This document shows, piece by piece, positions 33,157 through 51,380 of a stretch of DNA of 64,000 bases (position 1 is its first letter; every line of letters starts with the position of its first letter). Below the pieces are notes generated by a model. The model searched no databases. It was not told where the DNA came from and saw only the letters and a list, made by a program, of their open reading frames with translations. The stretch is from Lacinutrix mariniflava (GTDB lineage Bacteria; Bacteroidota; Bacteroidia; Flavobacteriales; Flavobacteriaceae): assembly GCF_001418015.1 (NCBI RefSeq), contig NZ_LIQG01000026.1, forward strand, positions 186,001 to 250,000, written 5' to 3'. The translations under genes and the position numbers were made by a program.

Positions 33157-33221
33157 ATAGTCGAACTTCGTTTGACGTATGATATAAGACATTGAAATGA
33201 TTTTATATTAACGAAACATTG
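33157..33221 (+). repeat. Palindromic cassette-type repeat, copy A
   Basis: TAGTCGAACTTCGTTTGACG, then an inner stem (GATATAA...TTATATT), then TTAACGAAACATTG. Outer stem TTCGTT/AACGAA. It ends 21 nt before the start of the HEPN-like gene. Confidence 0.75.
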
Positions 33222-33242
33222 TAAACAATTAGAAAAAAACCG

Positions 33243-34004
33243 TTGATAAAGAAAAAACAATACGATTTACCTTTTGAAAAAACTGATTTTGTAAGCAAAG
33301 TGAGTAAAATGCGAGGTGAAATTATTGGAAGAAGTACTGAAATCGTAAATGGAAAAGTTGAACAAAAAATCGACTATAAAGAAACAGAACAAGATGAATA
33401 TATCTCTTCAGTTGCAAAACCGATGACGAACATAATATTCACATTTGAACAGCTTGAATTTATTCCAGTATTTATGAGGAGATTTCCAGGCAGGAAGTTT
33501 CATAACGAGTATGGGATAAATCATCCTAAATACCTTCAATATCATTTAGAAAATCACTTTTTAAAAATCACAACGGTTTTAGACCAATGTATTGCATTCA
33601 CAGCGGAGATTTATCGACTTGGAATTCCGATAAAATTAAATTCACTTCGACATCTATCTGAAAACAAACATACTCGGCAAACGAAATCTGTCGAACTATT
33701 AAAAAAATTGGACAAACAAATTCAAGATATTAAAGGAATAAGAAACAGGATAATGCATCGTGGAGAATTTAATGATAGCGAAATTGACCGAGTTGCACAG
33801 TTTTATTTTTTATCAAATACAGTTAATGAAGGAGAAGAACCAATGTTCTCGGAAGACACTTTAAAGTATCATATGAAAGATGCAGTTAAAAATAGATTGG
33901 AACTTGTTGAATCAAATACAACTGAATTAAAGAAATATATTACTAAATTGTTCTCATTATCGCTCATAGAATTTGAAACGAAAATACAAACATTTCGAAA
34001 ATAA
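33243..34004 (+). CDS. HEPN-like hypothetical protein
   Basis: 253 residues, not a firmly recognised family. A helical core (about residues 95-190) ends in GIRNRIMHRGEF, which contains the R-x4-H signature of HEPN nucleases and is set as in Cthe_2314-type HEPN proteins (NRIxH before a short acidic turn). This suggests a metal-independent RNase or an RNA-binding relative. The start is uncertain: the frame opens at TTG 33243 (MIKKKQYDLPFEK), while the first in-frame ATG is at 33309. No antitoxin-like partner is adjacent. Preceded by palindromic repeat copy A and followed by structured DNA, as expected for an accessory cassette. Confidence 0.68.
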   Translation: MIKKKQYDLPFEKTDFVSKVSKMRGEIIGRSTEIVNGKVEQKIDYKETEQDEYISSVAKPMTNIIFTFEQLEFIPVFMRRFPGRKFHNEYGINHPKYLQYHLENHFLKITTVLDQCIAFTAEIYRLGIPIKLNSLRHLSENKHTRQTKSVELLKKLDKQIQDIKGIRNRIMHRGEFNDSEIDRVAQFYFLSNTVNEGEEPMFSEDTLKYHMKDAVKNRLELVESNTTELKKYITKLFSLSLIEFETKIQTFRK

Positions 34005-34297
34005 CCGCGGGCAATAATGCACATAAATCATATATATTAAAGGCCTTACGAGAAGTTTTTATGTATTTACTAAGACCGCCAAATTTTAAAATTTGGCTTT
34101 TAGTAAAATAAAGATAACAGAAAAATTTAAAAATTCGGCTCGTGTATAATCCGAAACGATAGTATCCTTTTACACGGTACGTTTCATATACGAGACGCTA
34201 AACGAAACATAAAAAGAAAGCCCAAAGCTCGCTTTTTTTATGATTAAATTAAGCAATCAACTTACAATATAAAAATTGAGTTTCTTTACAAAAACAA
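34005..34297. repeat. Structured non-coding spacer with a perfect 20-bp palindrome (34078-34097)
   Basis: GCCAAATTTTAAAATTTGGC is a perfect palindrome nested in an outer stem (TTTACTAA at about 34066 / TTAGTAAA at about 34100). Further on are TTCGGCTCGTGTATAATCCGAA (an imperfect stem near 34134) and ACGGTACGTTTC...AAACGAAAC (34174-34210), and a decayed terminator arm AAGCTCGCTTTTTTT near 34225. No ORF. This is the 3' flank of the HEPN gene up to repeat copy B. Confidence 0.6.
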
Positions 34298-34340
34298 CTA
34301 ACTTCGTTTACCGATAAATAAAACATTGAACCTATTTCTA
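34298..34340 (+). repeat. Palindromic cassette-type repeat, copy B (diverged)
   Basis: CTAACTTCGTTTACCGATAA followed by ATAAAACATTGAACCTATTTC. It keeps the left part and the CATTGAA loop; the right arm is decayed. It ends 12 nt before the ATG at 34353. Confidence 0.6.
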
Positions 34341-34352
34341 CTGGAGCACATT

Positions 34353-34922
34353 ATGAAAAAAATTCTAATATTATTACTAATAGTTTTAACTTCAAATTTA
34401 GCTGAAGCTCAGTTTATAAAAGAAAAATCTATAAATGCGCAAATTGGATACGGCGTAAGCGTACCATTTAATAGTGTTGATGAAATTGCTGATAGTGGTT
34501 TATTTGTACAAGGAGAATTAGTTTTAAAAGTAGCTTCTTGGTTCGAGTTAAGGCCTTATGCAGGTTTTATTTCGACAAGTTCAAGCGGAAAAGATATAAA
34601 CGACAAACCAACTAACGAAAGAGCAGAATCCAAAGCCATTTTACTTGGTGGAAAAGCAAGAGTTCGCGCACCAATTCCTTGGATTGCACCATACTTTGAA
34701 ATTGGAATAGGAACTTCAATTGGGAAATTTGAAACATTTACAGTCATTGATAACATCGATAAAGGTGGTATTATTTATCACATCCCTTTATCATTAGGAC
34801 TAGAATTAGGAAAAAACAACAATGTTGATTTAGCCTTTTCTTATTATTTTCAACCATCGGTTAAACAATTTGTTGGAGCATTTGCTGTTGGTATTACATT
34901 TCCGTTGAATAACAAAAAGTAA
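34353..34922 (+). CDS. Outer-membrane beta-barrel protein
   Basis: Start at ATG 34353 gives the signal peptide MKKILILLLIVLTSNLAEAQ; the longer frame from 34326 is unlikely. About 170 mature residues with alternating hydrophobic strands (INAQIGYGVSVPF, FELRPYAGFIS, APYFEIGIGTSIG, HIPLSLGLELG, VDLAFSYYFQPSVK) and a C-terminal aromatic-hydrophobic strand (FAVGITFPLNNKK), typical of an 8-stranded OMP_b-brl barrel. No substrate suggested. Preceded directly by repeat copy B. A hairpin TTCTAGTA/TACTAGAA occurs near 34950 without a clear T-tract. Confidence 0.82.
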   Translation: MKKILILLLIVLTSNLAEAQFIKEKSINAQIGYGVSVPFNSVDEIADSGLFVQGELVLKVASWFELRPYAGFISTSSSGKDINDKPTNERAESKAILLGGKARVRAPIPWIAPYFEIGIGTSIGKFETFTVIDNIDKGGIIYHIPLSLGLELGKNNNVDLAFSYYFQPSVKQFVGAFAVGITFPLNNKK

Positions 34923-35079
34923 GCTAACCACTCCTTTCTTCAATTCTATTCTAGTATTTTCTATTTACTAGAAACAATAAACCAGCACTCTAAAAATCCA
35001 CAAACAAAGCCTTTCACACTATAAACAAACACATTAAAGTAACCCACAACCTACCCAATCCTCAAATTAACACCTAAGA

Positions 35080-35133
35080 TTTCCTAAACTCAAATTAAGT
35101 CTCTATATTTGGTAAACCAGTTTGGTAAACCAA
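35080..35133 (+). promoter_or_regulatory. Promoter of the hexuronate operon overlapped by two tandem GntR/UxuR-type operators
   Basis: TTTC (35080-35083), 20-nt spacer, TATATTTG (35104-35111) fits the Bacteroidota promoter. Two copies of TTTGGTAAACCA follow, with cores TGGTAAACCA at 35110-35119 and 35123-35132 (13 bp apart). TGGTnnACCA is the known core of FadR/UxuR/ExuR-type GntR operators. The first operator overlaps the -7 box and the predicted +1, so binding would repress. Confidence 0.78.
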
Positions 35134-35214
35134 TTATGTTTATAGTTAGTACCATTTCAAAAAAATTAACTACACAATCAGCCAAGCTTTATTTAATACT
35201 AAATCAATTTAAGT

Positions 35215-36468
35215 ATGGCAACAGATATTATTACCTTTTCAGAAAAATTTAAAAAGAAGCTAAAAGATTTTGGACCAGCTTTTTTTATAATAGGTTATGT
35301 AGTAGGAACCGGAAGTGTAACTTCTATGGTTGTTTCTGGTGCTAAATATGGCTTAAGTCTGTCTTGGGCACTTTTGCTTTCTTGTTTTTTTACTTATTTT
35401 CTTCTTATTTCAATTAGTAAATTAACTATCGTTTCTGGAGAAACATTAATGTTCAATTTTAAAAAAATGTTTGGAAAACCACTCACCATTTTTATTGTTG
35501 TTGCATTGGGTGTTTCCATAATTTCATCGGTTATAGGTGTTATGGGCGTAGTTGCAGAAGTATCTCTAGAATGGATTTCTGTAAAAACCTCAATTTCCTT
35601 TTTAAATAAACCTGCTATTGCTATTTTCTTTATCGCTATTTTAATTGGTCTTTTCTGGACTGGTAAACACGAGTATTTTATTAAAGCAATGAGTATTATG
35701 GTAGGCTTTATGGCGCTCGCTTTTATTTTTACCAGTATTATGGTTTTAAAAGAATCTGGAAAAGCTATTATCGATTTTTTCCCTCAATTGCCAACTGGAG
35801 ACAATTCGGGACTTGTAATTGCCGGAATAGTAGGTACAACTATGGGCGGTGTTTGTTTAGCATCACGTAGTATTTTAGTCCAAGAAGAAGGTTGGGGATT
35901 ACAAGATTTAAAAAAGGAAAACAAAGACGCAATGTCTGCTATGGTATTAACTTTTTTAATAAGTCTAGCCATTATGATTAGCGCAACAGGAACACTATAT
36001 TTTAGCGGCACACCTGTAGACGACGCAACAGATATGATGCATGCATTAGGACCATGGGCTGGAGATTTTGCACTTACATTATTTACCTTAGGTATTATTG
36101 GAGCAGGATTATCTTCAATTTTTCCAAACCTTTTATTATTTCCGTGGTTGATTGCAGATTATACTGGCACACCACGTAACATGAAAAAACCGTTATACAA
36201 ACTTATAGTAGTAATAGTCGCATTGTGTGGTTTAATTATTCCCGTTTTAGGCGGTAAACCTGTTTGGATTTTAATCGCCTCGCAAGCATTAAGTCCATTT
36301 GTTATGCCATTAATAACGCTATTCTTATTAATTCTAATAAATAAATCTGACGTTATGAAAGGCCATAAAACATCACTTTGGATGAATATAGCCTTAGGAG
36401 CAACTTTAATTTTTAACTGTTATATGCTCTATGTCGCTTTAATTGGATTAATTAAATTTATACAGTAA
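35215..36468 (+). CDS. Nramp-family transporter lacking the canonical metal-binding motifs
   Basis: Inner-membrane protein of 417 residues with about 11 hydrophobic helices and overall Nramp similarity (GPAFFIIGYVVGTGSVTSMVVSGAKYG at TM1). In metal-transporting Nramp, TM1 has DPGN and TM6 has M-P-H; here TM1 reads VGTGS and TM6 reads TTMGGVCLASRSILVQ, so the Asp, Asn, Met and His ligands are missing. It is the first gene of a uronate-type operon, 23 bp before the PMI-like gene. Transport of another substrate (hydrated Mg, or an organic acid such as a uronate) is possible; this is inference. Confidence 0.8.
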   Translation: MATDIITFSEKFKKKLKDFGPAFFIIGYVVGTGSVTSMVVSGAKYGLSLSWALLLSCFFTYFLLISISKLTIVSGETLMFNFKKMFGKPLTIFIVVALGVSIISSVIGVMGVVAEVSLEWISVKTSISFLNKPAIAIFFIAILIGLFWTGKHEYFIKAMSIMVGFMALAFIFTSIMVLKESGKAIIDFFPQLPTGDNSGLVIAGIVGTTMGGVCLASRSILVQEEGWGLQDLKKENKDAMSAMVLTFLISLAIMISATGTLYFSGTPVDDATDMMHALGPWAGDFALTLFTLGIIGAGLSSIFPNLLLFPWLIADYTGTPRNMKKPLYKLIVVIVALCGLIIPVLGGKPVWILIASQALSPFVMPLITLFLLILINKSDVMKGHKTSLWMNIALGATLIFNCYMLYVALIGLIKFIQ

Positions 36469-36491
36469 CACAAACGTACACAAAAGAGAAC

Positions 36492-37586
36492 ATGAGTGAT
36501 AATTTACAACAATACGCACACGTACCTTTAAAACAACTTTCTAACAGAGTTTGGAGAACTTACCAAGGTGGTGCTTTAATAGATAACTGGAAAAAAACAT
36601 CACCAGAAATTGATAACAGCATGCCCGAAGAATGGATAATGTCTACCATTACTGCACGTGGAAAAGACAGACCAGAAAACGAAGGCTTGTCTCTTATAGA
36701 AACTCCAGATGGAACATTACCATTAAAGCAATTAATAGACTCTAATAAAGAATTATATTTAGGTAAAGCCCTTGCTGATAAATACGGAACAACAGGCGTA
36801 CTTATTAAAATGTTAGACTCTGTAGAACGTTTAACCGTACAAGTACATCCTGATAAAGAATATGCAAAAACAGTTTTTAATTCTGAATTTGGTAAAACCG
36901 AATCTTGGTACGTATTAAATACACGTGAAATAGACGGAGAGAAACCTGTTGTTTACATGGGTTTTAAAGAGCATGTTACAAAAGAAGAATGGAGAACGCA
37001 TTTTGAAAACCAAAACATTCAAGGCTTACTAGATTGTTTACACAAAATTGAAGTAAAAGCAGGTGATGCTTTCATGATTTATGGAGGCGTACCACATGCC
37101 ATAGGAAGCGGTTGTTTTTTAATGGAAGTTCAAGAACCTACAGATTATACCATGCGTGTTGAAAAAACGACACCTAATAATCTAAAAATTGGTCCAGAAT
37201 TAATACATCAAGGTGTTGGTGAAGAAAAAATGCTAGAGTGTTTTCATTACGATAATTACAGTTTAGAGCAAGCTTTAAACGCATGGAAAATAACTCCTGA
37301 AGTTATAGAAAGTAGTAATGAGTTTACCCTAAAAACCTTGTTTAACGAAAAACACACCAATTGTTTTGGCTTAAACGAATTGCTTTTAGACGGTAAGCAT
37401 ACTATTAAAGGCAACTCCAGTTTTTATGCTGCTGTTATCTATTCTGGTGATGGTGTTATGCATTGTAATGGTAAAGATTACGACTACACTCAAGGTGATG
37501 AAATCTTTATTTCTGCTGCCATTCCTGAAATTACTTTCAGCTCTAAAAGCCCATCAAAAATATTACTTTGTTATCCTCCAAACTAA
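36492..37586 (+). CDS. Class I mannose-6-phosphate isomerase family protein
   Basis: Cupin-type zinc isomerase of 364 residues. Zinc-site motifs: LTVQVHPDKEYA (Gln and His), the Glu in FGKTESWYVL, and GGVPHAIGSGCFLMEVQEPTDY (His and metal-site Glu). Family activity is mannose-6-P to fructose-6-P. It lies second in an operon with mannonate enzymes, where a uronate isomerase (UxaC) would be expected but is absent in the window. It may therefore act on a uronate or feed mannose into the pathway; this cannot be settled from sequence. C-terminal second cupin half at about 280-364. Confidence 0.88.
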   Translation: MSDNLQQYAHVPLKQLSNRVWRTYQGGALIDNWKKTSPEIDNSMPEEWIMSTITARGKDRPENEGLSLIETPDGTLPLKQLIDSNKELYLGKALADKYGTTGVLIKMLDSVERLTVQVHPDKEYAKTVFNSEFGKTESWYVLNTREIDGEKPVVYMGFKEHVTKEEWRTHFENQNIQGLLDCLHKIEVKAGDAFMIYGGVPHAIGSGCFLMEVQEPTDYTMRVEKTTPNNLKIGPELIHQGVGEEKMLECFHYDNYSLEQALNAWKITPEVIESSNEFTLKTLFNEKHTNCFGLNELLLDGKHTIKGNSSFYAAVIYSGDGVMHCNGKDYDYTQGDEIFISAAIPEITFSSKSPSKILLCYPPN

Positions 37587-37633
37587 GGGAAAACAAACAA
37601 TTACTGTCTAATAATTAAAATTTAAAAGCACAA

Positions 37634-38446
37634 ATGAATTTATTTAATCTAGAACATAAAGTAATCCTAGTCACTGGTGGTTGTGGAATTCTTGGTGGTG
37701 GAATTGCTAAATATTTAGCAGAAAATAAAGCAACGGTAATTTTATTACATTATAAAGAAGAACCATTATTAGCTGCTGTAAAAGAGCTGAAAACTATTAA
37801 TGAACATGCTGCAGGTTATGTTTGTAATGTTGTTGAAGAGAAGAGCTTGCAAGAAGTAGCAAAAAAAATCATGGATACTTATGGTAAAATTGATGCTTTA
37901 ATAAATGCTGCAGGTGGAAACAAACCGGGAGCAACAGTTGGTCCTGATCAGTCGGTATTCGATGTTGATGTCGAGCAGTTTAAACAAGTTATAGATTTAA
38001 ACTTATTTGGAAGTATTATTCCGTCTTTAGTCTTTGGAAAAGAAATGGCTAAAAACAAAAAAGGAACTATTATTAATGTGTCTTCTATGGCTGCAGACAG
38101 AGCTATTACTCGAGTAATGGGTTATTCGGCATCAAAAGCAGCAATAGACAATTTTACAAAATGGATGTCTGTTGAGTTAGCTCAAAAATATGGAGATGGT
38201 TTACGTGTAAATGCAATAGCACCTGGCTTTTTTATAGGAAATCAAAACCGAGCTTTGTTAACCAATGAAGACGGAAGTTATACCGATAGAGGCAATACAA
38301 TTATTAAAAACACACCAATGAATCGTTTTGGTGATGCTGATGAACTTAATGGAGCTATTCATTACCTAGCCTCTGAAGCTTCAAAATTTGTAACAGGAAT
38401 TATTATTCCTATCGATGGTGGATTTAGTGCTTTTAGTGGTGTTTAA
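37634..38446 (+). CDS. SDR-family D-mannonate oxidoreductase (fructuronate reductase type)
   Basis: Classical NAD(P)-dependent short-chain dehydrogenase: cofactor motif VTGGCGILGGGIAKYLA (residues about 13-29), NAAGGNKPGAT, Ser in INVSSMAADRA and catalytic YSASKAAIDNF. C-terminal PIDGGFSAFSGV. SDR proteins beside UxuA in Bacteroidota reduce D-fructuronate to D-mannonate, replacing UxuB of enterobacteria. The uxuA gene starts 13 bp later, which supports this. 270 residues is normal. Confidence 0.88.
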   Translation: MNLFNLEHKVILVTGGCGILGGGIAKYLAENKATVILLHYKEEPLLAAVKELKTINEHAAGYVCNVVEEKSLQEVAKKIMDTYGKIDALINAAGGNKPGATVGPDQSVFDVDVEQFKQVIDLNLFGSIIPSLVFGKEMAKNKKGTIINVSSMAADRAITRVMGYSASKAAIDNFTKWMSVELAQKYGDGLRVNAIAPGFFIGNQNRALLTNEDGSYTDRGNTIIKNTPMNRFGDADELNGAIHYLASEASKFVTGIIIPIDGGFSAFSGV

Positions 38447-38459
38447 AAAATAGAAAACA

Positions 38460-39638
38460 ATGGAACAAACATGGCGTTGGTACGGTCCGAAGGATACAGT
38501 ATCATTATCAGACATTAAACAAGCGGGAGCAACAGGAATTGTTTCGGCTTTACATCATATTCCAAACGGGCAAGTTTGGACGGTTGAAGCTATTAAAGAA
38601 CGAAAAGCAACTATAGAAAACGCTGGTTTAACATGGAGTGTTGTAGAAAGTATTCCTGTACACGAAAATATTAAAACACGTTCTGGCGATTTTAATATAT
38701 ATATAGACCATTATAAAACAAGTATTCAAAATTTAGCAGCCTGTGGTATTTCTATAGTCTGTTATAATTTTATGCCTGTTTTAGATTGGACAAGAACAGC
38801 ATTAGATTTTGAAGTTGAAGACGGCTCTAAAGCATTACGTTTTGATGTAACTGCATTTGCAGCTTTCGAATTGTTTATTTTAAAAAGACCCGGAGCATCA
38901 ACTTCTTATAACGAAACCGAAAAAAATAATGCTCAAGCTTATTTTAATACACTTTCTAAAGCCGAAATTAAAAACCTAAGTAATAATATTATTGCCGGCT
39001 TACCAGGTGCTGAAGAAGGTTACTCTTTAGAGCAGTTTCAAACCATTTTAAATACTTACAATGACATTGACTCTAACAAGTTGAAAGAAAATTTAGTCGC
39101 CTTTTTAAAAGAAATAATACCTATTGCTTCTCAAAACAAGGTGTTAATGTGTATTCATCCAGACGATCCACCTATGCCTATTTTAGGATTACCAAGAGTT
39201 GTGAGTACTGAAGAAGATTATGCTTATTTATTTGAACAAGTACCAGATAGAGCTAACGGCATTACATTTTGCACAGGTTCACTAGGCGTTAGAGAAGACA
39301 ATAATTTGGTAAACATATTTAAACGCTTTGCAGATCGTGTTCATTTTTTACATTTAAGAAGCACACAAAGAGATGCCGCTGGTAATTTTTACGAAGCCAA
39401 CCATTTAGAAGGTAATGTAGATATGTTTAGTATTGTTACCGAAGTTTTAAAAGAAGAAAAAAGGCGTTTAGCAGCAGGTATGGCAGATGCTATTATACCT
39501 ATGAGACCAGATCATGGACACCAAATGTTAGACGACTTAAAAAAAACTACAAATCCTGGATATTCTGGTATTGGTAGACTAAGAGGTTTAGCAGAAATTA
39601 GAGGTTTAGCTTATGGAATTTCTAGAAGCTTAAACTAG
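38460..39638 (+). CDS. uxuA: Mannonate dehydratase
   Basis: Dehydrates D-mannonate to 2-keto-3-deoxy-D-gluconate; TIM-barrel enzyme using Mn or Fe. Family motifs: [19 protein letters not shown] at the N-terminus, [61 protein letters not shown] and the C-terminal [13 protein letters not shown]. 392 residues is the usual length. Last gene of the operon; a clear terminator follows. KDG kinase and aldolase are not in the window. Confidence 0.97.
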
Positions 39639-39664
39639 ATAATTACTGTTTTAAAAAGAAATAT

Positions 39665-39694
39665 AACGCCACAATTTATGTGGCGTTTTTGTTT
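39665..39694 (+). terminator. Terminator of the hexuronate operon
   Basis: AACGCCACA-ATTTA-TGTGGCGTT with a following T-rich run, 27 bp after the uxuA stop. Confidence 0.88.
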
Positions 39695-39751
39695 TTTTTA
39701 AAACAGTATTTACCGACATCTATTCTACCTTAATTTACTGATTTTAAAAAA

Positions 39752-39840
39752 TTTGACTTTGTAAAAAAAATAGTCGAACTTCGTTTAACGCTTGATAAAA
39801 AACATTAAAACGATTTTTTATCAGAGAAATATTAAACGAA
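39752..39840 (+). repeat. Palindromic cassette-type repeat, copy C (best-preserved)
   Basis: TTTGACTTTGT leader, TAGTCGAACTTCGTTTAACG, inner perfect stem GATAAAAAA (39794) / TTTTTTATC (39823) around CATTAAAACGA, right arm ATATTAAACGAA. Outer stem TTCGTTTAA/TTAAACGAA. The gene at 39858 starts 17 nt later. Confidence 0.82.
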
Positions 39841-39857
39841 TAAAAAAATAAAGACTA

Positions 39858-40196
39858 ATGGTAAGGTTAAAGAAAACTGGTTTTAGAATAACTTTTGAAG
39901 ATGGACAAACCTTAACAAGGTATTTACAACCTAGAGGCGAAAAACAACCTTTCAAAATTGAAATAGAAGCTAAAAATAGTGATGTAAAAAACGGAACTTT
40001 TGGTTTTGATACCATTCCAGATAAAGGCATTGTAGAGTCTGACTACCAAAAACTAAAAGATGAATATAAGCCGCTTTCTGAAAAAATACTTGGCGAAGAA
40101 TATATACCCAATTGGTTAAGTTTAAGAAAAGACCAAACTGTTGAACTTGAACTAGAATGGACAAAAAAAATAGAGCAGAGGACTATGAAACAATAA
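39858..40196 (+). CDS. Hypothetical protein, probable N-terminal part of a frameshifted metzincin
   Basis: 112 residues with no recognised domain; beta-rich start (VRLKKTGFRITFEDGQTLTRY). Near its 3' end the codons ACA AAA AAA ATA contain the -1 slippery heptamer A AAA AAA (40163-40169). A -1 slip moves the reading directly into the metzincin frame, giving ...EWTKKNRAEDYE... and a fusion of about 375 residues. In zero frame it ends 9 codons later after IEQRTMKQ. It is therefore either a separate small protein or the front half of a fusion made by ribosomal or transcriptional slippage (or a single-base indel). Preceded by repeat copy C. Confidence 0.6.
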   Translation: MVRLKKTGFRITFEDGQTLTRYLQPRGEKQPFKIEIEAKNSDVKNGTFGFDTIPDKGIVESDYQKLKDEYKPLSEKILGEEYIPNWLSLRKDQTVELELEWTKKIEQRTMKQ

Positions 40197-40984
40197 GTTT
40201 TAATTCACACGACGATTTTACCTTTGAGCCAGAGAATCTAAAAGATGCTAAAAAAGTGACCATTACCTGTAAAAACAACAACCAAAATCCACTTCAACTT
40301 CTTATAAGAGCTGACAACGAATTAACTGTTGGCGCTTTAAATATTTTTTACCCTAAACCTAAAACCATTGACCTTGAATGGTGTTTTATAGAAATACAGG
40401 GGAGACAAAAAGACAAAAACGATTTAGCAAGAAAAATAAATTATTCAAAAATAAAGGACTATCTTAAAAAAGGTTTAAATCCTGCTTTAATAGATGTTAC
40501 TATTACAAACAATGAAGCTGCTTTAGTAGATATTAGTACAGATACTGAAAAACTAACAGAACGTGGCTATTTAAAAAAACATTCAACGATAGGTAACTAT
40601 ATTGAGCGTAGTAAAAAAAGTGTCATTTTAAGTTTTGTTAGTAGTAACCACAATGAAGATGTAAATAAATTAACTGTTTATTTTATCAACCAAAAATGCA
40701 TTAATACTTCTGATATTAAAGAGGATGGAACTTTTAAAATGGCTGGTGGTGTATCTCCAACAGGCACTGGTATTGCTTATTTAGTATTAGATGATGATGG
40801 AAATATTAAATCTGAAAACATTATACACGAAGTAATGCATGCTTTAGGTTTAAACCATACATTTAGTAGTACACATAAATTTAAAGACACCAAAACAGAC
40901 AATTACATGGATTACGAAAATACAAAAAAGTACACCTATAAATGGCAATGGGAAAAATTACAAGGATATTCTAAACTAAAATAA
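40157..40984 (+). CDS. Metzincin-type zinc metallopeptidase (M10/M43-like)
   Basis: The C-terminus has the extended zinc motif IIHEVMHALGLNHTF (HExxHxxGxxH) and 25-30 residues later the Met-turn DNYMDYENTKK, the two marks of metzincins; HTF...NYMDY is close to the M43/M10 clans. The N-terminal 180 residues (FTFEPENLKDAKKVTITCKNN, LEWCFIEIQGR) are not recognised. No signal peptide. An ATG is present at 40157, 40 bp inside the upstream ORF; no other good start follows until far into the protein. A lipoprotein gene begins 1 bp after its stop. Confidence 0.78.
   Translation: MDKKNRAEDYETISFNSHDDFTFEPENLKDAKKVTITCKNNNQNPLQLLIRADNELTVGALNIFYPKPKTIDLEWCFIEIQGRQKDKNDLARKINYSKIKDYLKKGLNPALIDVTITNNEAALVDISTDTEKLTERGYLKKHSTIGNYIERSKKSVILSFVSSNHNEDVNKLTVYFINQKCINTSDIKEDGTFKMAGGVSPTGTGIAYLVLDDDGNIKSENIIHEVMHALGLNHTFSSTHKFKDTKTDNYMDYENTKKYTYKWQWEKLQGYSKLK
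40163..40169 (+). other. -1 slippery site A AAA AAA in the overlap of two ORFs
   Basis: Zero-frame codons ACA AAA AAA ATA; tract of eight A at 40163-40170. The heptamer is in the correct phase for -1 slippage, and the -1 frame is open upstream to the metzincin ORF for its whole length. Confidence 0.5.
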
Positions 40985-40985
40985 T

Positions 40986-41639
40986 ATGAAATATTTATAT
41001 ATTTTACTCTTAGGCGTTTTTCTAATTAGTTGCTCTTCTGTTCCTAAAGAATATCTAACCAATAATGATATTTGTTATTATGACGACCCTATTTTTAAAA
41101 TTACTACAGAAGAAATGGTTTTTAACAGCGCCAAATATGATAGTATACTTTCTATAAAAGGAGTTGTTTTTATTGAAAAAGGAAATTACACGATTGAAAT
41201 ACAAAATGATTTAATTGGCAAAACAGACAATAAAACAAGTTTAACTAAATGGATTAACTACTATCCGAATGGAAAAATTAGTAATATTAAATTTTTCTTG
41301 AGAAATTCTAGTAGTACAGGAATAGAAAAAGAAACTTCTTATGACCAAAAAGGAAATATTACCGAAGTAATTAACTACGAAAAAGGGTATAGTATTTGTT
41401 GGGCAGAAGCTATTGAAATAGTAAAAAAAATAGCTAAAAAGGAAATTCAAAAATATCAAGTAACAGGTTTTAATTTATCTCGTGTAGATTTAAATGAATT
41501 TCCAAATGAAAAACCAAAATGGGCAGTTTCATTAGTTGGAAATGAAGAGTACGAACAAAAAGACACTAAAGTATATTGGATAGATGGCATAACAGGTAAG
41601 TTTTTAAGAACAACAAAAATAATAACAACATTCGATTAA
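40986..41639 (+). CDS. Hypothetical lipoprotein next to the metzincin
   Basis: 217 residues with lipobox LLLGVFLISCSSVPKEY (Cys about residue 16). The middle contains WINYYPNGKISNIKFF and SYDQKGNITEVINYEKGY, which look like MORN-variant / antitoxin-type repeats common in Bacteroidota; the C-terminus has a VAL-VGNEEY...VYWIDGITGKFLRT pattern like PepSY-type folds. The start is 1 bp after the metzincin stop, so they are co-expressed. A role as an inhibitor or immunity protein for the peptidase is speculative. The 150 bp after it hold no ORF; repeat copy D follows. Confidence 0.75.
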   Translation: MKYLYILLLGVFLISCSSVPKEYLTNNDICYYDDPIFKITTEEMVFNSAKYDSILSIKGVVFIEKGNYTIEIQNDLIGKTDNKTSLTKWINYYPNGKISNIKFFLRNSSSTGIEKETSYDQKGNITEVINYEKGYSICWAEAIEIVKKIAKKEIQKYQVTGFNLSRVDLNEFPNEKPKWAVSLVGNEEYEQKDTKVYWIDGITGKFLRTTKIITTFD

Positions 41640-41793
41640 AGCCCAGTGGCCAACAAAGAACAATCTAGAGATACTCACAACAACTTGAAAACGAGATCTT
41701 GGTCTCACAGCACTGAACGTGATTTATAGTAGAAAATAGAGAGGATTATCAATGTTGTCAAAGTCGTTTCTAGAAACTTGAATTTCCAATAAA

Positions 41794-41850
41794 ATAGTCG
41801 AACTTCGTTTAACAACTTGAAAAAAGACATAAAAACTATTTTTTTCATCA
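41794..41850 (+). repeat. Palindromic cassette-type repeat, copy D
   Basis: ATAGTCGAACTTCGTTTAAC, then inner stem TTGAAAAAA / TTTTTTCA around GACATAAAAACTA. The right outer arm is diverged. It lies 36 nt before the ATG at 41887. Confidence 0.75.
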
Positions 41851-41886
41851 GGTAGTCTATTGCTCAAAAAAAAACTCAAAGACAAA

Positions 41887-42657
41887 ATGTATTATTTAAT
41901 TCAAAAAAATATTTTCCAAGACCCTAGATATGATGAAATATTTCATGTAATGAAAGCATTAAATTTACCTTTTCAAGAAGTTAGTTTTCAACCAAATAGT
42001 ACTGAGTTAAATATAGAAACTACCCGAAAAGATATATTTGTATACGGCTCTGTAAAATTAGCAAAAACCGCAACAAACTACGATTGGAAGCCAGGTTCCT
42101 TTTATGGAAATAATCATGAGTATGAGAAATATTCTGTTGGTTATGGAGCTAATATTTTAAACCACGGAAGTTTTATCAAGCAATTTAGCGAGCCTTTTAA
42201 TTGGGACACTAATCAAACACTATTTATTAAACCGAGTAAGGATGCCAAAGTTTTTACAGGCAAAGTTTTTTCAAAACCAGAGTGGGAAGATTTTGTATAT
42301 AATACTCTAAATAGTAAAGAAGACAATAGAGTTGATGGTGCAACACAAATACAGGTTTCAAAATCGTACAATGTAATTAAAGAAGCAAGAGTTTGGATTA
42401 TTAATCGCAAAGTTATTACCAGCTCTTACTATTTATTTCATGGAAATGTTGAATATGAAGAAAATGTATCTAAGGACGGATTATGCTTTGCTAAAGAAAT
42501 GGCTGATTTATATAATGTAGCAGACGCCTATGTAATGGATATTTGTAAAACTCATAATGGATGGAAAATTATGGAAGTTAATTGTATTAATAGTGCAGGA
42601 TTTTACAAAGCTGATGTGAAAGCTATAATCGTTGCATTGGAAGAATTTTATGAATAA
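41887..42657 (+). CDS. ATP-grasp protein (R2K-clade-like)
   Basis: Start taken at ATG 41887 (MYYLIQKNIF); the frame also opens at TTG 41860. Features of a minimal ATP-grasp fold: LFIKPSKDAKVFTGKVF (Lys near the N-lobe), a central EARVWIINRKVIT (Arg), and the metal-binding end AYVMDICKTHNGWKIMEVNCINSAGFY with Asp, Glu and Asn. The R2K clade of ATP-grasp proteins is built this way and is thought to form peptide or other carbon-nitrogen bonds; substrate unknown. Flanked by repeat copies D and E, with no partner gene inside the pair. Confidence 0.8.
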   Translation: MYYLIQKNIFQDPRYDEIFHVMKALNLPFQEVSFQPNSTELNIETTRKDIFVYGSVKLAKTATNYDWKPGSFYGNNHEYEKYSVGYGANILNHGSFIKQFSEPFNWDTNQTLFIKPSKDAKVFTGKVFSKPEWEDFVYNTLNSKEDNRVDGATQIQVSKSYNVIKEARVWIINRKVITSSYYLFHGNVEYEENVSKDGLCFAKEMADLYNVADAYVMDICKTHNGWKIMEVNCINSAGFYKADVKAIIVALEEFYE

Positions 42658-42660
42658 GTA

Positions 42661-42714
42661 AGACGAACTTTGTTTAATGCTTGGTGAAAAATAATAAAAC
42701 TATTTTTTATTCAT
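42661..42714 (+). repeat. Palindromic cassette-type repeat, copy E
   Basis: AGACGAACTTTGTTTAATGC, then TTGGTGAAAAATA...TATTTTTTATTCA inner stem. It begins 3 nt after the ATP-grasp stop and abuts the lysC stop on the other strand; the right outer arm is missing. Confidence 0.65.
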
Positions 42715-42715
42715 T

Positions 42716-44044
42716 TTAAACCACCACACCACTATTCTCAAAAACGTAACGTTGTAATTTCTGTAGCGTTTCTATTTTATCGCTAGTATTTATTAATAAC
42801 GAAATATTATTATTACTTCCGCCGTAAGAGATCATTCTTACGCTAACATCTTGTAAAATCTGGAATAAGTTAGGCGTATCTGTATGGAAAATTATTTCAT
42901 TTCCAACCAAACACACAATACTCATATAATCGTCAACCTCAACTACTGCAAATTTATTAAGTTCGTCTACAATAGCTTCTAAATGTCTAGTATCGTCAAT
43001 TGTTAAAGACACAGCAATTTCCGAAGTTGTAATCATGTCTATAGCCGTTTCGTAACGTTCGAAAATTTCAAAGACCTTCTTTAAAAAACCATGAGCTTGT
43101 AACATTCTAACCGATTTTATCTTTATGGCCGTAATACCATCTTTAGCTGCAATAGCTTTAATACCTTCTCCATGAACCTGGTTAGTAATTAATGTACCAT
43201 GTGCTTCAGGATCCATTGTGTTTTTTAGTCTTACAGGGATATCAAATACACTTACAGGCATTACGGTTTGTGGGTGTAAAATTTTAGCTCCAAAATAAGC
43301 CAGCTCGGCAGACTCATCGAAAGACAAATTAGAGATTGCTGTTGTGTTTTCTACAAAACGTGGATCGTTATTATGAAAACCATCAATATCTGTCCAAATT
43401 TGTACTTCTTCAGCTTTTAAAACAGCACCAATTATCGTTGCAGTATAATCGCTTCCGCCGCGTTGTAAATTTGCAATATTCCCTTCAGCATCCCGACTAA
43501 TAAAACCTTGTGTAATGTATATTTCAGAATTTGGTGTTTCGGCCATAATTCTGTTTAAATTCTGTTGTATGTAATAGTTATCTGGTTCGTTAGTTTTATC
43601 AATACGCATAAAATCTAAAGCAGGTAGTAATGATGCATTTATCCCTTCTTGTTGTAAATAATGAGTAAAAATATAAGTAGATAACAATTCGCCTTGAGCT
43701 ACAATTTGATTATATAATAAAGTATTAAATCGCTTATTTACCAATGCTTCTAACGTATTAAACACATCGTTTACATAAACAAAAACGGTTTTATATAAGT
43801 CTTTATTAATAATAAAGGTTTTAATCGTGCTATTATAGTTAGTTCTAAGTGCATCGATAACAATCAATGCTTCGTCTACATTTCCAATTTTAATGTATTC
43901 CGAAATTTTAACCAAAGCGTTTGTAGTACCAGACATTGCCGATAATACAACAACCTTTTTTTCGCCATCGTTAATAATATTTTTAACATTTATCATGTTC
44001 TCTATAGACCCAACCGATGTACCTCCAAATTTTAATACTAACAT
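42716..44044 (-). CDS. lysC: Aspartate kinase (monofunctional)
   Basis: First step of the lysine/threonine/methionine branch: aspartate to aspartyl-phosphate. N-terminal MLVLKFGGTSVGS nucleotide motif, VVVLSAMSGTTNAL, the Asp-binding FISRDAEGNIANLQRGGSDYTATIIGA (partly: GGSDYTAT) and EVQIWTDIDGFHNNDPR. Two ACT domains in the C-terminus (about 300-442) imply allosteric control. 442 residues, not fused to homoserine dehydrogenase. Single gene, divergent from an ACT-like protein gene with 104 bp between. Confidence 0.96.
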   Translation of the reverse strand: MLVLKFGGTSVGSIENMINVKNIINDGEKKVVVLSAMSGTTNALVKISEYIKIGNVDEALIVIDALRTNYNSTIKTFIINKDLYKTVFVYVNDVFNTLEALVNKRFNTLLYNQIVAQGELLSTYIFTHYLQQEGINASLLPALDFMRIDKTNEPDNYYIQQNLNRIMAETPNSEIYITQGFISRDAEGNIANLQRGGSDYTATIIGAVLKAEEVQIWTDIDGFHNNDPRFVENTTAISNLSFDESAELAYFGAKILHPQTVMPVSVFDIPVRLKNTMDPEAHGTLITNQVHGEGIKAIAAKDGITAIKIKSVRMLQAHGFLKKVFEIFERYETAIDMITTSEIAVSLTIDDTRHLEAIVDELNKFAVVEVDDYMSIVCLVGNEIIFHTDTPNLFQILQDVSVRMISYGGSNNNISLLINTSDKIETLQKLQRYVFENSGVVV

Positions 44045-45520: not shown

Positions 45521-45555
45521 ATAAAATTAACATAAATATTAAAAAAAGAAAAATT

Positions 45556-46104: not shown

Positions 46105-46139
46105 AAATGTAGTCCCTTTAACTGCAGATTAATAGCTGT

Positions 46140-46168: not shown

Positions 46169-46196
46169 ATTAATTATCAAATAAAAACATAAAATT

Positions 46197-46922: not shown

Positions 46923-46941
46923 ATACAAACAAAAATAAATT

Positions 46942-47256
46942 ATGATAAAAGTATCCGTAATGTATCCAAACAGTAAAGATGTACAGTTTGATGCAGACTA
47001 TTATAAAACAAAACATTTACCAATGGTTATCGATGCGCTTGGTAGTGCTTTAAAAGGTTTAGAATTAGATTTAGGATTGGCTAGCAGAGCTCCGGAAGAG
47101 TCTGCACCTTACATAGCCATTGCACATTTAAAATTTGATAGCGTAACGGCTTTTCAAGAGTCTTTTGGGCCTCATGCCGAAACTTTTGCTGCAGATATAG
47201 AAAACTACACTAATGTACAAGGCGTACTTCAAATTAGTGAATTGGTTACTTTTTAA
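46942..47256 (+). CDS. EthD-family protein
   Basis: 104 residues: IKVSVMYPNSKDVQFDADYYKTKHLP at the start and FGPHAETFAADIENYTNVQ near the end match the EthD ferredoxin-like fold (phrases shown in two parts: VMYPNSKDVQFDADYY, then KHLPMVID). EthD-type proteins accompany degradation of ethers and aromatic compounds; exact chemistry is unsettled. 19 bp after the SDR gene, so co-transcribed. Confidence 0.9.
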   Translation: MIKVSVMYPNSKDVQFDADYYKTKHLPMVIDALGSALKGLELDLGLASRAPEESAPYIAIAHLKFDSVTAFQESFGPHAETFAADIENYTNVQGVLQISELVTF

Positions 47257-47280
47257 AACAGAAACATAAATGGTGTTTTA

Positions 47281-47952: not shown

Positions 47953-48003
47953 GTCGATTAGCGTTCTAGGAATCAATATAAAATTCAATTAAAAAATAAA
48001 GTT

Positions 48004-48660
48004 ATGGCTAATAAATTAAAAATAGATATTGTTTCAGATGTTGTATGCCCTTGGTGTACCATTGGATACAAACGTTTAGAAAAAGCAATCCAAGAACTTG
48101 GTATTGAAGATCAAATTGATTTAGAATGGCAACCATTTGAGTTAAATCCAAATATGCCTGCTGAAGGTCAAAATGTAAACGAGCATATTACAGAAAAATA
48201 CGGTTCTACTACAGAGCAACAAAACGAATCGAAGCAAATGATGACGGAAGCTGGTGAAGAACTAGGTTTTAAATTCGATTATTTTGATGACATGCGCATG
48301 ATAAATACTTTTGATGCACACATTTTATTAGAATATGCTAAAGATTTCGGAAAGCAAACCGAATTAAAAATGGCATTAACTAAAGCTTTTTTTAGCGATA
48401 GAAAAGATGTGTCTAAAAAAGATATTTTAAAAGAAACTCTTTTAAGTGTTGGTTTAAATGCAGACGAAGCCTTAGCTAAATTAGATAGTGAAGATGCACG
48501 TTTAGAAGTAAGAACCAAACAAGACTATTGGAAAAATATGGGCGTAAACTCTGTACCAACTATTGTTTTTAATCGTAAAAGTGCCGTTACAGGAGCGCAA
48601 CCTGTAGATACTTTTAAGCAAGTTTTAAACGAATTAATTAAAGAACAACAATCGGTTTAA
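48004..48660 (+). CDS. DsbA-family oxidoreductase (FrnE-like, cytosolic)
   Basis: 218 residues without signal peptide. Active site VVCPWCTIGYKRLEKA (CPWC) near the N-terminus, a helical insert, and the cis-Pro loop GVNSVPTIVFNRK. FrnE-type proteins are cytosolic dithiol isomerases linked to oxidative stress and polyketide pathways. In the TetR operon, 10 bp before the peroxiredoxin-like gene. A 26-codon relic of this gene or a paralogue lies at 51203-51283. Confidence 0.95.
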   Translation: MANKLKIDIVSDVVCPWCTIGYKRLEKAIQELGIEDQIDLEWQPFELNPNMPAEGQNVNEHITEKYGSTTEQQNESKQMMTEAGEELGFKFDYFDDMRMINTFDAHILLEYAKDFGKQTELKMALTKAFFSDRKDVSKKDILKETLLSVGLNADEALAKLDSEDARLEVRTKQDYWKNMGVNSVPTIVFNRKSAVTGAQPVDTFKQVLNELIKEQQSV

Positions 48661-48670
48661 TACAAAACAC

Positions 48671-49336
48671 ATGAACAACAATAAAAACACAGGAGCATTA
48701 GACGTTTTGTTAGATGAAGTCCGTCAAGCAGGCGCTGCTAAATTCTCAGACGAAAAGAAACAGATATATGCAGACGGAATTTCTAGTGTTGCCAATTCTG
48801 GAGTCTTAGATGCTGCATTAAATGTTGGAGATAAAGCACCTAACTTCACTTTAAAAAATGCTTTAAACGAAGCTGTTACTTTAAACGACGAACTTAAAAA
48901 TGGACCTGTAGTTTTAACATGGTACAGAGGTGGTTGGTGTCCGTATTGTAACATTACATTACACGCTTTACAAGAAAAATTACCAGAGTTTAAAAATGAA
49001 GGTGCTACACTTTTGGCTTTAACTCCAGAATTGCCTGATAACTCTTTAAGTACTTCAGAAAAAAATAATTTAGAATTTACTGTATTGAGTGATATTGGCA
49101 ATGCAATTGGCAAAGAATACGGTGTAGTTTACACATTAACAGACGATGTTGCTTCTATGTATAATGCTGGTTTTGGGTTAAACAAAGTAAATGGAGACGC
49201 TAGTAACACCTTGCCTTTAGCTGCAACTTATGTTATTGACACTAACGGAATTATTAAGTATGCTTTTTTAGATGCAGATTATACAGCGCGTGCTGAACCT
49301 TTAGAAATATTATCTGCTTTACGTAAATTAAAATAA
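48671..49336 (+). CDS. Peroxiredoxin-like (AhpC/TSA-type) protein
   Basis: 221 residues of thioredoxin fold: GDKAPNFTLKNA, then LTWYRGGWCPYCNITLHALQ with an active CxxC rather than the single peroxidatic Cys motif PxxxTxxC of classic 2-Cys enzymes. C-terminal TYVIDTNGIIKYAFLDADY. Likely an atypical peroxiredoxin or thiol reductase. Neighbour to DsbA-like and AhpD-like genes, supporting an electrophile or peroxide defence role. Confidence 0.92.
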   Translation: MNNNKNTGALDVLLDEVRQAGAAKFSDEKKQIYADGISSVANSGVLDAALNVGDKAPNFTLKNALNEAVTLNDELKNGPVVLTWYRGGWCPYCNITLHALQEKLPEFKNEGATLLALTPELPDNSLSTSEKNNLEFTVLSDIGNAIGKEYGVVYTLTDDVASMYNAGFGLNKVNGDASNTLPLAATYVIDTNGIIKYAFLDADYTARAEPLEILSALRKLK

Positions 49337-49363
49337 TGTATTTTTATTAAGAAAAACATACCA

Positions 49364-50440
49364 ATGAAAAATTTTAGCTACATCATTATCCTTTCTATTT
49401 TATTTATTTCTTGTAAAGAAAAAATAGAAAACAAAGTAGAAACTACACCTGTTACGGTACAAACCGAAACTCCAAAAGCCACTCAAATAACGGCTTTTAA
49501 AGGACAACAAGTCACTGGAGTCTCGGTGAGTAATGAAGGTCGTATTTTTGTGAATTTCCCAAGGTGGAGAAAAGGCGTTAAGAATTCTGTAGCAGAAATC
49601 ACAAATAATACAAACACTGCTTTTCCTAATGAAGCTTGGAACTCTTGGGAAATAGGAAACAAAATAGAAGCTAATAAATTTGTTGGCGTACAGTCTGTTG
49701 TTGTTTACAACCAACTTATCTATGTTTTAGATACTAGAAGCGCACTTTTTCAAGAAGTAGTAGATGCTCCTAGAATTTTTGTTTTTAATATAAATACAAA
49801 GGAACTAGAGCATACTTATATTTTAAATGAAGAGGCTTATCATCCTAATTCTTACATCAACGATTTACGTCTTGATAAAAAGAACAACAAAATCTACTTT
49901 ACAGATTCTGGTAATTCTGGATTAGTAATTTTAGATTTAAAAACTGAAAAGTTTACCAGAGTTTTAGACAACCATTCTTCTACAGCAGCAGAAGTCGATT
50001 TTTTAACTTTTGAGAATAAAACATGGACGAATTCTGTAAATTCTGATGGAATTGCCCTAGATACCAAGAATAACAAACTATACTACCACGCACTTTCAGG
50101 CTATAGTTTATTTAGTATACCAACAACAGCACTGACTTTAGAAGATGAAAAAGAGATTGAAAACGCAGTCACTTTTGAAGCTAAAACTTCTGCGCCCGAC
50201 GGAATGATTTTTGATGACAACGGAAACTTATATTACGCAGATCTAGAACACAATAAAATTATGTATCGCAAACCAGATGGCAGCATACACACTTTAATTG
50301 AAGGTGATGCCATAAAATGGGCAGATACCTTTAGTATATATAACGGTTATTTATATTTCACCAACTCTAGAATTAATGAGATCACTGCAGATATTTCTAA
50401 CATGGAATTTACCGTTAATAAAATTGCATTAGCAAATTAG
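49364..50440 (+). CDS. Major-royal-jelly/yellow-related lipoprotein (L-dopachrome tautomerase-related)
   Basis: 358 residues. Lipobox ILSILFISCKEK (Cys about residue 17). Beta-propeller blades typical of the MRJP/yellow family: VSVSNEGRIFVNFPRWRKG, YVLDTRSALFQ, NDLRLDKKNNKIYFTDSG, GIALDTKNNKLYYHALSG, FEAKTSAPDGMIFDDNGNLYYADLE (quoted in part: APDGMIFDDNGNLYYAD) and WADTFSIYNGYLYFTNSR. Function in bacteria unknown; the eukaryotic relatives act in dopachrome/melanin chemistry. Outer-membrane or periplasmic. Ends at a strong terminator. Confidence 0.9.
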   Translation: MKNFSYIIILSILFISCKEKIENKVETTPVTVQTETPKATQITAFKGQQVTGVSVSNEGRIFVNFPRWRKGVKNSVAEITNNTNTAFPNEAWNSWEIGNKIEANKFVGVQSVVVYNQLIYVLDTRSALFQEVVDAPRIFVFNINTKELEHTYILNEEAYHPNSYINDLRLDKKNNKIYFTDSGNSGLVILDLKTEKFTRVLDNHSSTAAEVDFLTFENKTWTNSVNSDGIALDTKNNKLYYHALSGYSLFSIPTTALTLEDEKEIENAVTFEAKTSAPDGMIFDDNGNLYYADLEHNKIMYRKPDGSIHTLIEGDAIKWADTFSIYNGYLYFTNSRINEITADISNMEFTVNKIALAN

Positions 50441-50456
50441 TTTTTAATGCTTCAAG

Positions 50457-50489
50457 AAAAAACAGATTGATTTTATCAGTCTGTTTTTT
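50457..50489 (+). terminator. Terminator after the MRJP-like gene
   Basis: AAAAAACAGATTGAT / ATCAGTCTGTTTTTT: 15-bp stem with one G-T pair, 3-nt loop, then T's. Confidence 0.9.
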
Positions 50490-50518
50490 TAATTATAAAC
50501 ATTACATATCTTCATAAA

Positions 50519-51202
50519 ATGAAAACCAAACCTAAAGTATTATTCTTCGATGTAAACGAAACGTTATTAGATTTAACGATAATGAAAAAGCAAATTGGTG
50601 ACGCTTTAGGCGGAAAAGACCATTTGCTATCCTTGTGGTTTACAACTATGTTGCAATACTCGTTAGTGGTTTCTGCAAGCGGACAATATAAACCGTTTGG
50701 ACATATTGGTGCTGCTGCTTTACAAATGGTTGCAGCAAATAATGGAATTACAATTCCTGAGGATAAAGCGCGAGATATTATAGTTAATGCCATGCAAAAT
50801 TTACCACCGCATCCAGAAGTTAAAGACGCTTTAACCTTACTAAAAAAGGAAGGATACACTTTGGTAGCACTTACTAATTCTAATAAAGAAAGCTTAAAAA
50901 ACAAATTTGAAAACGTAGGTTTAACAACTTATTTTGATGAGCTATTAAGTATTGAATCTGTTGGGAAATTTAAACCTTTTACCGATGTTTATAATTGGGC
51001 AGCCCATAAAATGAACGCAAAACCAGAAGATTGTATGCTTATTGCTGCGCATGGTTGGGATGTTGCAGGCGCACTTTGGGCTGGCTGGCGAGCTGCTTTT
51101 GTTAGCAGACCAGGACAACAAACATTTCCGTTAGCACCACAAACAGAAATTAACGAACCAAACTTAAAATTAATAGCAGATATTCTTATTCAATACAAAT
51201 AA
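50519..51202 (+). CDS. HAD-superfamily hydrolase, haloacid dehalogenase type II
   Basis: 227 residues. Nucleophile Asp in KVLFFDVNETLLDL, motif II Thr/Ser in LVALTNSNKESL, motif III Lys in ESVGKFKPFTDVY and motif IV Asp in MLIAAHGWDVAGALWAGW. The type II L-2-haloacid dehalogenase group hydrolyses 2-haloacids to 2-hydroxyacids, though many members act on other small substrates. It follows its own terminator-bounded space, so it is probably separate from the operon upstream. Its stop is directly followed, in frame, by the DsbA relic. Confidence 0.93.
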   Translation: MKTKPKVLFFDVNETLLDLTIMKKQIGDALGGKDHLLSLWFTTMLQYSLVVSASGQYKPFGHIGAAALQMVAANNGITIPEDKARDIIVNAMQNLPPHPEVKDALTLLKKEGYTLVALTNSNKESLKNKFENVGLTTYFDELLSIESVGKFKPFTDVYNWAAHKMNAKPEDCMLIAAHGWDVAGALWAGWRAAFVSRPGQQTFPLAPQTEINEPNLKLIADILIQYK

Positions 51203-51283
51203 GAACTAAAAATAGACATTGTTTCAGATGTTGTTTGCCCATCGTGTAGCGTTGGATATAAGCGTTTAGAAAAAGCAGTTTAA
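51203..51283 (+). pseudogene. DsbA-family relic (residues 4-29 of a CPWC protein)
   Basis: Immediately after the HAD stop and in the same frame, codons read ELKIDIVSDVVCPSCSVGYK, then RLEKAV and stop. It matches residues 4-29 of the DsbA-like protein at 48004 (KLKIDIVSDVVCPWCTIGYK, RLEKAI) at 21 of 26 positions. No start codon or remaining body. A fossil of a deleted or duplicated paralogue; the active site is CPSC instead of CPWC. Confidence 0.85.
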
Positions 51284-51300
51284 TTAGTAAAAACTTCGCC

Positions 51301-51380
51301 TTGACTTTGTTAAAAAACCGCTAACTTCGTTTATCGTATGATAAAAAACATTGAATCGATTTTTTATCAACGAAACATTG
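51301..51380 (+). repeat. Palindromic cassette-type repeat, copy F
   Basis: TTGACTTTGTT leader, CTAACTTCGTTTATCG, inner perfect stem GATAAAAAA / TTTTTTATC around CATTGAATCGA, right arm AACGAAACATTG. Outer stem TTCGTT/AACGAA. It ends 22 nt before the ATG at 51403. Confidence 0.82.

Follow-up and report, generated by a model that had tools for sequence, protein, structure and literature searches.

A palindromic repeat of Lacinutrix mariniflava as the probable left half of a dispersed attC-like site that receives gene cassettes

The window analysed here is a stretch of 64,000 nucleotides from the 3.97 Mb genome of Lacinutrix mariniflava (contig NZ_LIQG01000026.1, positions 186,001 to 250,000; G000:C26:186001–250000 in our notation, in which G000 is this source genome). 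It carries six copies, A to F, of a palindromic repeat (table 1). An earlier note on this DNA had proposed that the repeats mark cassette-like units with sites resembling integron attC; it had left the mechanism open, no integrase being in the window, and had named a common 5' leader RNA as the alternative. This proposal gains support from the variable contents of orthologous loci, from the position of the repeat at gene starts and from an integrase with an attC array elsewhere in the genome. We regard it as highly probable that the repeat makes up the left half of an attC-like site, dispersed in the genome and filled with cassettes by an integron-type tyrosine recombinase at the point A|TT. 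We refer to this short recombination site as the P-site.

All six copies exist, on the + strand and close to where the earlier note had placed them; three are clear (A, C and F), two are weak (D and E) and B is recognizable by eye only. The arms said to be common to them fared unequally. The left arm, CGAACTTCGTTTAACG, occurs with at most two mismatches in all six, but the right arm had been over-generalized, since among the six copies exact AACGAAACATTG is found only at 33210 (copy A) and 51369 (copy F). The covariance model R1 of the P-site, built from 20 copies of the source genome, matches A, C and F at 79–84 bits; these matches hold by construction, since all three are among the 20. Copies D and E, outside the source set, score about 26 bits (E values 0.0013 and 0.0018), and copy B has no R1 match at E ≤ 0.01.

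How is the site built? In the source genome a 30-nt pattern finds 26 matches with at most three mismatches, its reversed control none, and R1 finds 36 at E ≤ 1e-4, of which 34 were fetched and inspected. The counts below refer to 39 P-sites: 38 distinct R1 matches and copy B, added by hand. Sites fetched in duplicate (L121, L122) were entered once, and the pattern-like places L119 and L032:4396, which score below R1, were left out. In its intact form the site is a short palindrome that resembles attC and follows TTGACTTTG, with a usual arm (GTTTAAC / GTTAAAC) that fits the classical R-box consensus. The tandem units of contig C32 consist of TTGACTTTG, the palindrome, one gene (two in some), a long 3' hairpin and TTAAACGAACC. 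A geneless unit of the same contig (L027:8022–8090) has the palindrome continuing straight into AAACGAACC; in the predicted fold of this empty site's bottom strand, an outer stem of 12 bp and an inner one of 8 bp are separated by an asymmetric internal loop with 7 nt on one side and 3 nt on the other. For a complete empty P-site of the source genome, the one example folded, z is –3.0 for the bottom strand and –2.0 for the top strand, and the folded bottom strand would, on this prediction, be the substrate of recombination. A single pattern found five empty palindromes in the fetched sequence, including copy C and three in G012, to which the G002 site at the copy F locus is added. Where a site is filled, the cassette splits the right arm between A and TT. 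At four loci (L014, L024, L025 and L026) the P-site loop is enlarged by a further stem-like segment of about 23 nt. In L115 (C27:143000–151500) a variant P-site has a different left arm, GAAATTAATCTAAC, and retains the upstream TTGACTTT..TAGTCGAACTTCG block, which is therefore conserved apart from the arm.

If the left arm and the right boundary are the halves of one site, they are expected to be complementary across the inserted gene. We examined the 24 P-sites followed on the same strand by an attC detected with R2, a model of the array-type attC (at ten control loci without an expected attC, R2 gave nothing below E 0.7). In 21 of these pairs the right half matches its own left arm at 9–10 of 10 positions, a level reached by 21 of 2000 random 28-mers. 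Fifteen pairs have the consensus arm and nine a variant arm; of the nine variants, seven agree with the right half of their own site (L106, L107, L108, two adjacent ones in L115, L116 and copy F of the window, whose attC has its right end placed by hand at the G002 border in this test also), and none of 20,000 permutations did as well. Could the P-sites instead have spread as miniature inverted-repeat transposable elements (MITEs) or repetitive extragenic palindromic (REP) elements, with no more than a resemblance to attC? They are dispersed, palindromic and present in the 36 copies found by R1, and such a process may account for their spread. It does not account for their use, the sites being split by cassettes at a single point and having a compensated right half, and we consider this explanation quite unlikely.

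Does the same gene always stand behind the same copy? It does not: the contents of copy F and of the region of copies A–E differ among species. The copy F locus, anchored on the upstream gene 50519–51202, behind which a DsbA-like gene stands intact or truncated, is an empty site in G002 and holds three different genes in G000, G012 and G005 (the right border in G005 lies beyond the fetched stretch). In the window the truncated DsbA-like sequence is a second copy of the start of that gene (51204–51277, 88% identical over 74 nt to 48014–48087) just upstream of copy F; it occurs in G005 too, and the gene is intact there in G002 and G012. The genes that flank copies A–E, 31161–32477 and 42716–44044, are adjacent in G007, G009 and G011, and at this junction those three genomes have no R1 or R2 match. 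In G005 the region holds one different cassette with an attC and TTAAACGAAAC, in G002, among others, an outer-membrane protein (OMP) gene with an attC, and in G012 several genes, among them ones for an OMP and a transporter and a uxuA-like one; G000, G002 and G012 have the OMP gene of copy B in common. Between pepT and cydA there are three cassettes in G000, an empty site and another gene in G012 and different content in G002. This comparison covers the three of five fetched genomes in which pepT stands beside cydA, which is not the case in G005 and G007 (L087 and L088, left out). The flanking proteins at the compared loci are mostly 91–99% identical; one, beside the empty G002 site, is 77% identical. 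The names pepP, lysC, pepT, cydA, htpG, uxuA and DsbA-like are our presumptive assignments, made by recognition from sequence.

Where might such cassettes come from? The source genome has five PF00589 genes, none of them on C32. XerD (L095:3471–4394) lies over the NCBIfam cut-off and XerC (L101), the best match for its gene, under it; the two are separate genes. A third tyrosine recombinase, of 285 aa (L095:12597–13454, PF00589 130 bits), adjoins an array of small genes with 120-nt hairpins, so that a recombinase with a linked array, which the earlier note had suggested looking for, is present elsewhere in the same genome. A regular expression finds at least 37 attC sites, all in one orientation, in the 58.6 kb fetched. 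In 27 of 34 cassettes 9–10 nt of R'' are complementary to the 5' end of the same cassette, and in the other seven 3–4 nt (0 of 10,000 permutations did as well; pairs more than 3.2 kb apart are left out), and some of these seven look like places where the regular expression missed a site. The attC stem is 99.3% paired with seven of 13 pairs compensated, by a structure taken from the same alignment; slid versions give 18–50%. For the one array site folded, the bottom strand reaches –19.9 (z –3.3) against –15.3 (z –1.5) for the top. Four Lacinutrix genomes have similar sequence beside the integrase as far as G|TT and diverge beyond it, a position consistent with an attI-like point. Genes of IS110-type transposases, recognized by eye, lie inside the integron arrays (L117 from about 7260 onward; L098 11906–12898 and 15314–16306), and the element in L117 interrupts the right arm of an attC.

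The array and the P-sites are joined by a 558-bp cassette. At a P-site of C32 (L028:5393–5950) and in the array of C20 (L117:2460–3017) it is 100% identical, with borders A|TT and G|TT respectively, and both flanks differ between the two locations. Could XerC and XerD, both of which are present, move the cassettes at dif-like sites in the manner of pdif-type modules, in place of the third recombinase? Such modules have 28-bp dif-like sites, like for like, at both ends. The unit moved here contains a single full attC and is inserted at A|TT, the array has cassette-specific R''/R' pairs, and related recombinases adjoin attC in several genera, which makes this route highly improbable. The integron's own recombinase is the better candidate for inserting the P-site cassettes. 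We propose that an integron-type tyrosine recombinase would insert cassettes, as a rule of one gene each, into the P-site at A|TT, and that these would be of the same kind as the cassettes of the genome's large integron, with its IntI-like recombinase, attI-like point, 120-nt attC and cassette-specific R''/R' pairs. That the system works like an integron is well supported.

What would an incoming gene find? An open reading frame of at least 70 aa starts within 100 nt downstream of 34 of the 39 P-sites, as against one of 39 on the opposite side, so that the repeat stands 5' of genes, as the earlier note had it, and is not equally frequent away from gene starts. The motif TTGA[CGA]TTT lies within 62 nt upstream in 34/39, mostly at a single fixed distance. 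The Bacteroidota promoter type has TTG and TAnnTTTG, and we take the spacing at the promoter-like element to be consistent with it; TTGACTTTG probably drives transcription. Thirty-five of the 39 sites follow an open reading frame in the same direction (two follow one in the opposite direction and two none), cases that are not independent because in arrays the preceding gene is often the previous cassette. An incoming gene would thus land in a ready expression slot, since the P-site lies behind the promoter-like TTGACTTTG and usually after a gene of the same direction. Nine of 25 right ends (five of the 25 were placed by hand) have a terminator-like hairpin behind them; the corresponding counts are 26 among 600 random segments and none among 37 array boundaries. 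We therefore rejected a terminator in every slot; there is a tendency at most.

The position before genes, with a promoter-like element, is also what one would expect of a cis-regulatory 5' leader, an RNA hairpin shared by accessory genes, to which recombination would be incidental. The RNA folds of copies A (z –2.3) and F (z –2.6) are better than those of shuffled sequences; the remaining four lie between –1.0 and +0.8. As DNA, the six window copies alone fold weakly (z from +0.52 to –2.97, only F being under –2); the complete empty site described above folds better. But there are complete empty sites with no gene immediately downstream, complementarity links the left arm to sequence past the gene, some 0.5–2.8 kb off, and the cassette borders are exact. 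A leader as the essence of the repeat is thus very unlikely; a leader RNA may be a secondary role of it.

Several observations weigh against a P-site filled by an integron-type recombinase. At L030 (consensus arm), L110 and L114 (variant arms) the expected right half fails, with 6–7 of 10 matches as in most random 28-mers. L115 contributes one variant in two adjacent copies, so that the seven variant matches are not fully independent. The copy F cassette of G012 interrupts its site at an ACA|TTG that precedes the usual point, by an alternative crossover or a deletion. The 558-bp cassette is the single identical one; the remaining P-site loci have only attC-sized similarity to the fetched array. 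G008 (84% complete) has at least 147 attC matches and no R1 match at E ≤ 1e-4, so the slots are not a necessary part of the system. For 15 of the 39 P-sites R2 detects no attC before the next P-site. The last of these counts, together with the degenerate copies B, D and E and with units that repeat a local terminator sequence within an array (L027, L031), would suit dead remnants, namely old arrays and tandem duplicates resembling clusters of attC sites lacking integrases (CALIN) and without present mobility. A cassette that is 100% identical in array and P-site does not fit such remnants, nor do loci whose contents differ, or whose site is empty, between flanking proteins as similar as those above; we judge this explanation unlikely.

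The integrase itself also departs from the classical type. From KDR to HxLRH it has 66 residues, 42 fewer than the 108 of IntI1, and the gap appears also in comparison with 2a3v. It aligns with TIGR02249 in two pieces at 180.5 bits, under the cut-off of 265. This cut-off is reached in none of 40 genomes, and all 14 controls give weak matches, so TIGR02249 alone is not diagnostic. The IntI-specific additional domain is absent from the integrase, and GTTRRRY is found in two of 37 R' boxes of the array and RYYYAAC in three of 37 R'' boxes. Two defining features of an IntI integron, the additional domain and the classical R boxes, are thus missing. A tree of integrases placed it relative to IntI1 without resolution (support 55/66, long branches) and is not used as evidence.

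How far does the system extend? R1 has matches in 12 of the 13 genomes of the genus searched and R2 in all 13, with at least 9 to at least 147 matches each (the best 150 candidates at most were scored per genome). In a strictly filtered survey of 149 Flavobacteriaceae genomes, mostly one per genus, in which at most the best 23 R2 matches per genome were scored, R2 matches occur in 122 (five or more in 91) and R1 finds dispersed sites in 22. Among the genera with related integrases are Nonlabens, Aureitalea and Flavobacterium; 17 of the 28 are in our set A5, and an R2 attC is found at 10 of the 28 loci, whose flanks reach 6 kb at most and are in many cases incomplete. A second, longer type of integrase, 370–392 aa with an N-terminal extension, has an attC in the short flank at five of ten loci (L039, L042, L044, L045 and L047), and a Persicobacter integrase 44% identical to it lies about 5 kb from a single attC. 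Residues 1 to about 105 of four longer integrases (L096, L097, L099 and L102) have no Pfam match at E ≤ 0.001. Divergent from the gene in each is a small zinc-ribbon-like open reading frame, recognized by eye (L096 9434–9832, L097 10979–11350, L099 9541–9918, L102 10809–11186); neither of the two compared with Pfam has a match.

The features of the window are collected in table 1. Its HEPN gene is present in the source genome only among 299 genomes of the family, so that there is no evidence for its spread. A scan with Rfam finds no family at gathering score over the repeats; elsewhere in the window it finds the Flavo-1 RNA (RF01705) at 53766–53901 with 49.5 bits, over the gathering score. Parts of two adjacent genes, 58741–59840 and 60344–61371, are 73–81% identical, a tandem duplication.

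Table 1. Sites, cassettes and neighbouring features of copies A–F in the window (positions are those of the window).
Feature	Positions	Strand	Evidence and remarks
Insertion hotspot between conserved genes 31161–32477 and 42716–44044	32478–42715	.	two genes directly adjacent in G007, G009, G011
Copy A, left part of landing site; TTGAGTTTT at 33140	33164–33221	+	R1 79.3 bits; used to build R1
Copy A cassette gene, Cthe_2314-like HEPN	33243–34004	+	PF18730 29.1 bits, cut-off 27.1
Cassette A, attC-like 3' element	34023–34191	+	77% identity over 171 aligned nt to array L118:14214–14382; outside R2 reach at E ≤ 0.01
Site A, right part GCTAAACGAAA	34197–34207	+	
Copy B, degenerate site before beta-barrel gene 34353–34922 (OMP_b-brl, under Pfam cut-off)	34294–34353	+	by eye; missed by R1
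Copy C, complete empty landing site (..AAATA|TTAAACGAAT); TTGACTTTG at 39753	39777–39841	+	R1 80.1 bits; used to build R1; empty-site pattern
Copy D, degenerate site before ATP-grasp (R2K) gene	41795–41857	+	R1 26.1 bits
Copy E, remnant between ATP-grasp gene and convergent gene 42716–44044	42660–42725	+	R1 25.6 bits
TTGACTTTG, promoter-like element 5' of copy F	51301–51309	+	putative promoter
Copy F, left part of attC-like landing site to insertion point A|TT	51323–51377	+	R1 83.9 bits; used to build R1; uninterrupted orthologue in G002
Gene cassette within copy F	51378–51881	+	borders by eye against empty site of G002
Copy F cassette gene, 125 aa	51403–51780	+	no Pfam or PADLOC match at E ≤ 0.01
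Copy F cassette attC, degenerate at R'' end	51779–51881	+	R2 52.3 bits, E 3.8e-7, match 51779–51901; right end by hand at G002 border
Copy F landing site, right part ATAAACGAAAC	51882–51892	+	9/10 complementary to variant left arm TTCGTTTAT; identical block after empty G002 site
Terminator-like hairpin after copy F slot	51900–51927	+	

How does this arrangement compare with known systems? Like a sedentary chromosomal integron, or superintegron, it has a recombinase gene by an attI-like point, a long cassette array of one direction, and 120-nt imperfect-palindrome attC sites with a G|TT crossover whose bottom strand folds best (one example). It differs in its integrase without the IntI additional domain, in R boxes that are mostly non-classical and in cassettes that occupy conserved slots across the chromosome as well. 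With CALIN the P-site arrays of C32 share cassettes with attC far from an integrase, and the L027 and L028 arrays do have two or more attC without an adjacent integrase. However, each slot is built around a short conserved site of its own; most (34/39) also have a promoter-like element, and a terminator-like hairpin stands at nine of the 25 right ends.

The attG sites (Loot et al. 2024, Nat Microbiol, as cited in PMC12444791 and PMC12901181) are described as widespread sites that diverge from the classical att types. They share with P-sites the insertion of integron cassettes in the chromosome outside the integron. P-sites, on the other hand, form a conserved family of attC-like palindromes with a fixed crossover, and so fall outside the description of attG as neither attC nor attI. 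Bacteroidota are listed among integron-bearing phyla in PMC8618304, as is the Bacteroidetes/Chlorobi group in PMC2426708, and the IntegronFinder 2.0 paper (PMC9024848) names one complete integron for Bacteroidetes, in Salinibacter ruber M1. This too is an integron in Bacteroidota, detected by IntI-specific criteria, whereas the present integrase is without that domain; we set the two apart by description. The additional domain is given as a mark of IntI, and IntegronFinder as using a profile of that domain, in PMC9668308; the bottom-strand preference and the folded features of attC are treated in PMC8946536. A word search of PMC8352920 and PMC7370490 gave no Bacteroid- or Flavobacter- wording. 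Among the matches listed by a literature search on integrons in Flavobacteriaceae, Bacteroidota and Lacinutrix, with a scope of papers other than preprints and subscription papers, no title concerned Flavobacteriaceae integrons or dispersed slots.

We lean towards the view that the Flavobacteriaceae hold a widespread class of integrons whose integrase is without the IntI domain, distributed in Lacinutrix and some other genera as dozens of dedicated slots in the chromosome. Such a slot would comprise a promoter-like element, a short landing site resembling attC and, in some cases, a terminator, and would show an interchangeable cassette of the kind found in the array. In surveys that rely on the IntI-specific domain, complete integrons appear rare in Bacteroidota (PMC9024848, PMC9668308); arrays such as these would presumably escape notice, since IntegronFinder uses a profile of that domain. 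The system also raises the question of how attC hairpins are handled by a recombinase that has no additional domain. Since the attC model matches 122 of the 149 Flavobacteriaceae genomes, one of the main routes by which these bacteria exchange genes may have gone unnoticed. The dispersed slots, in which cassettes are placed singly behind promoter-like elements, would let stored genes be expressed.

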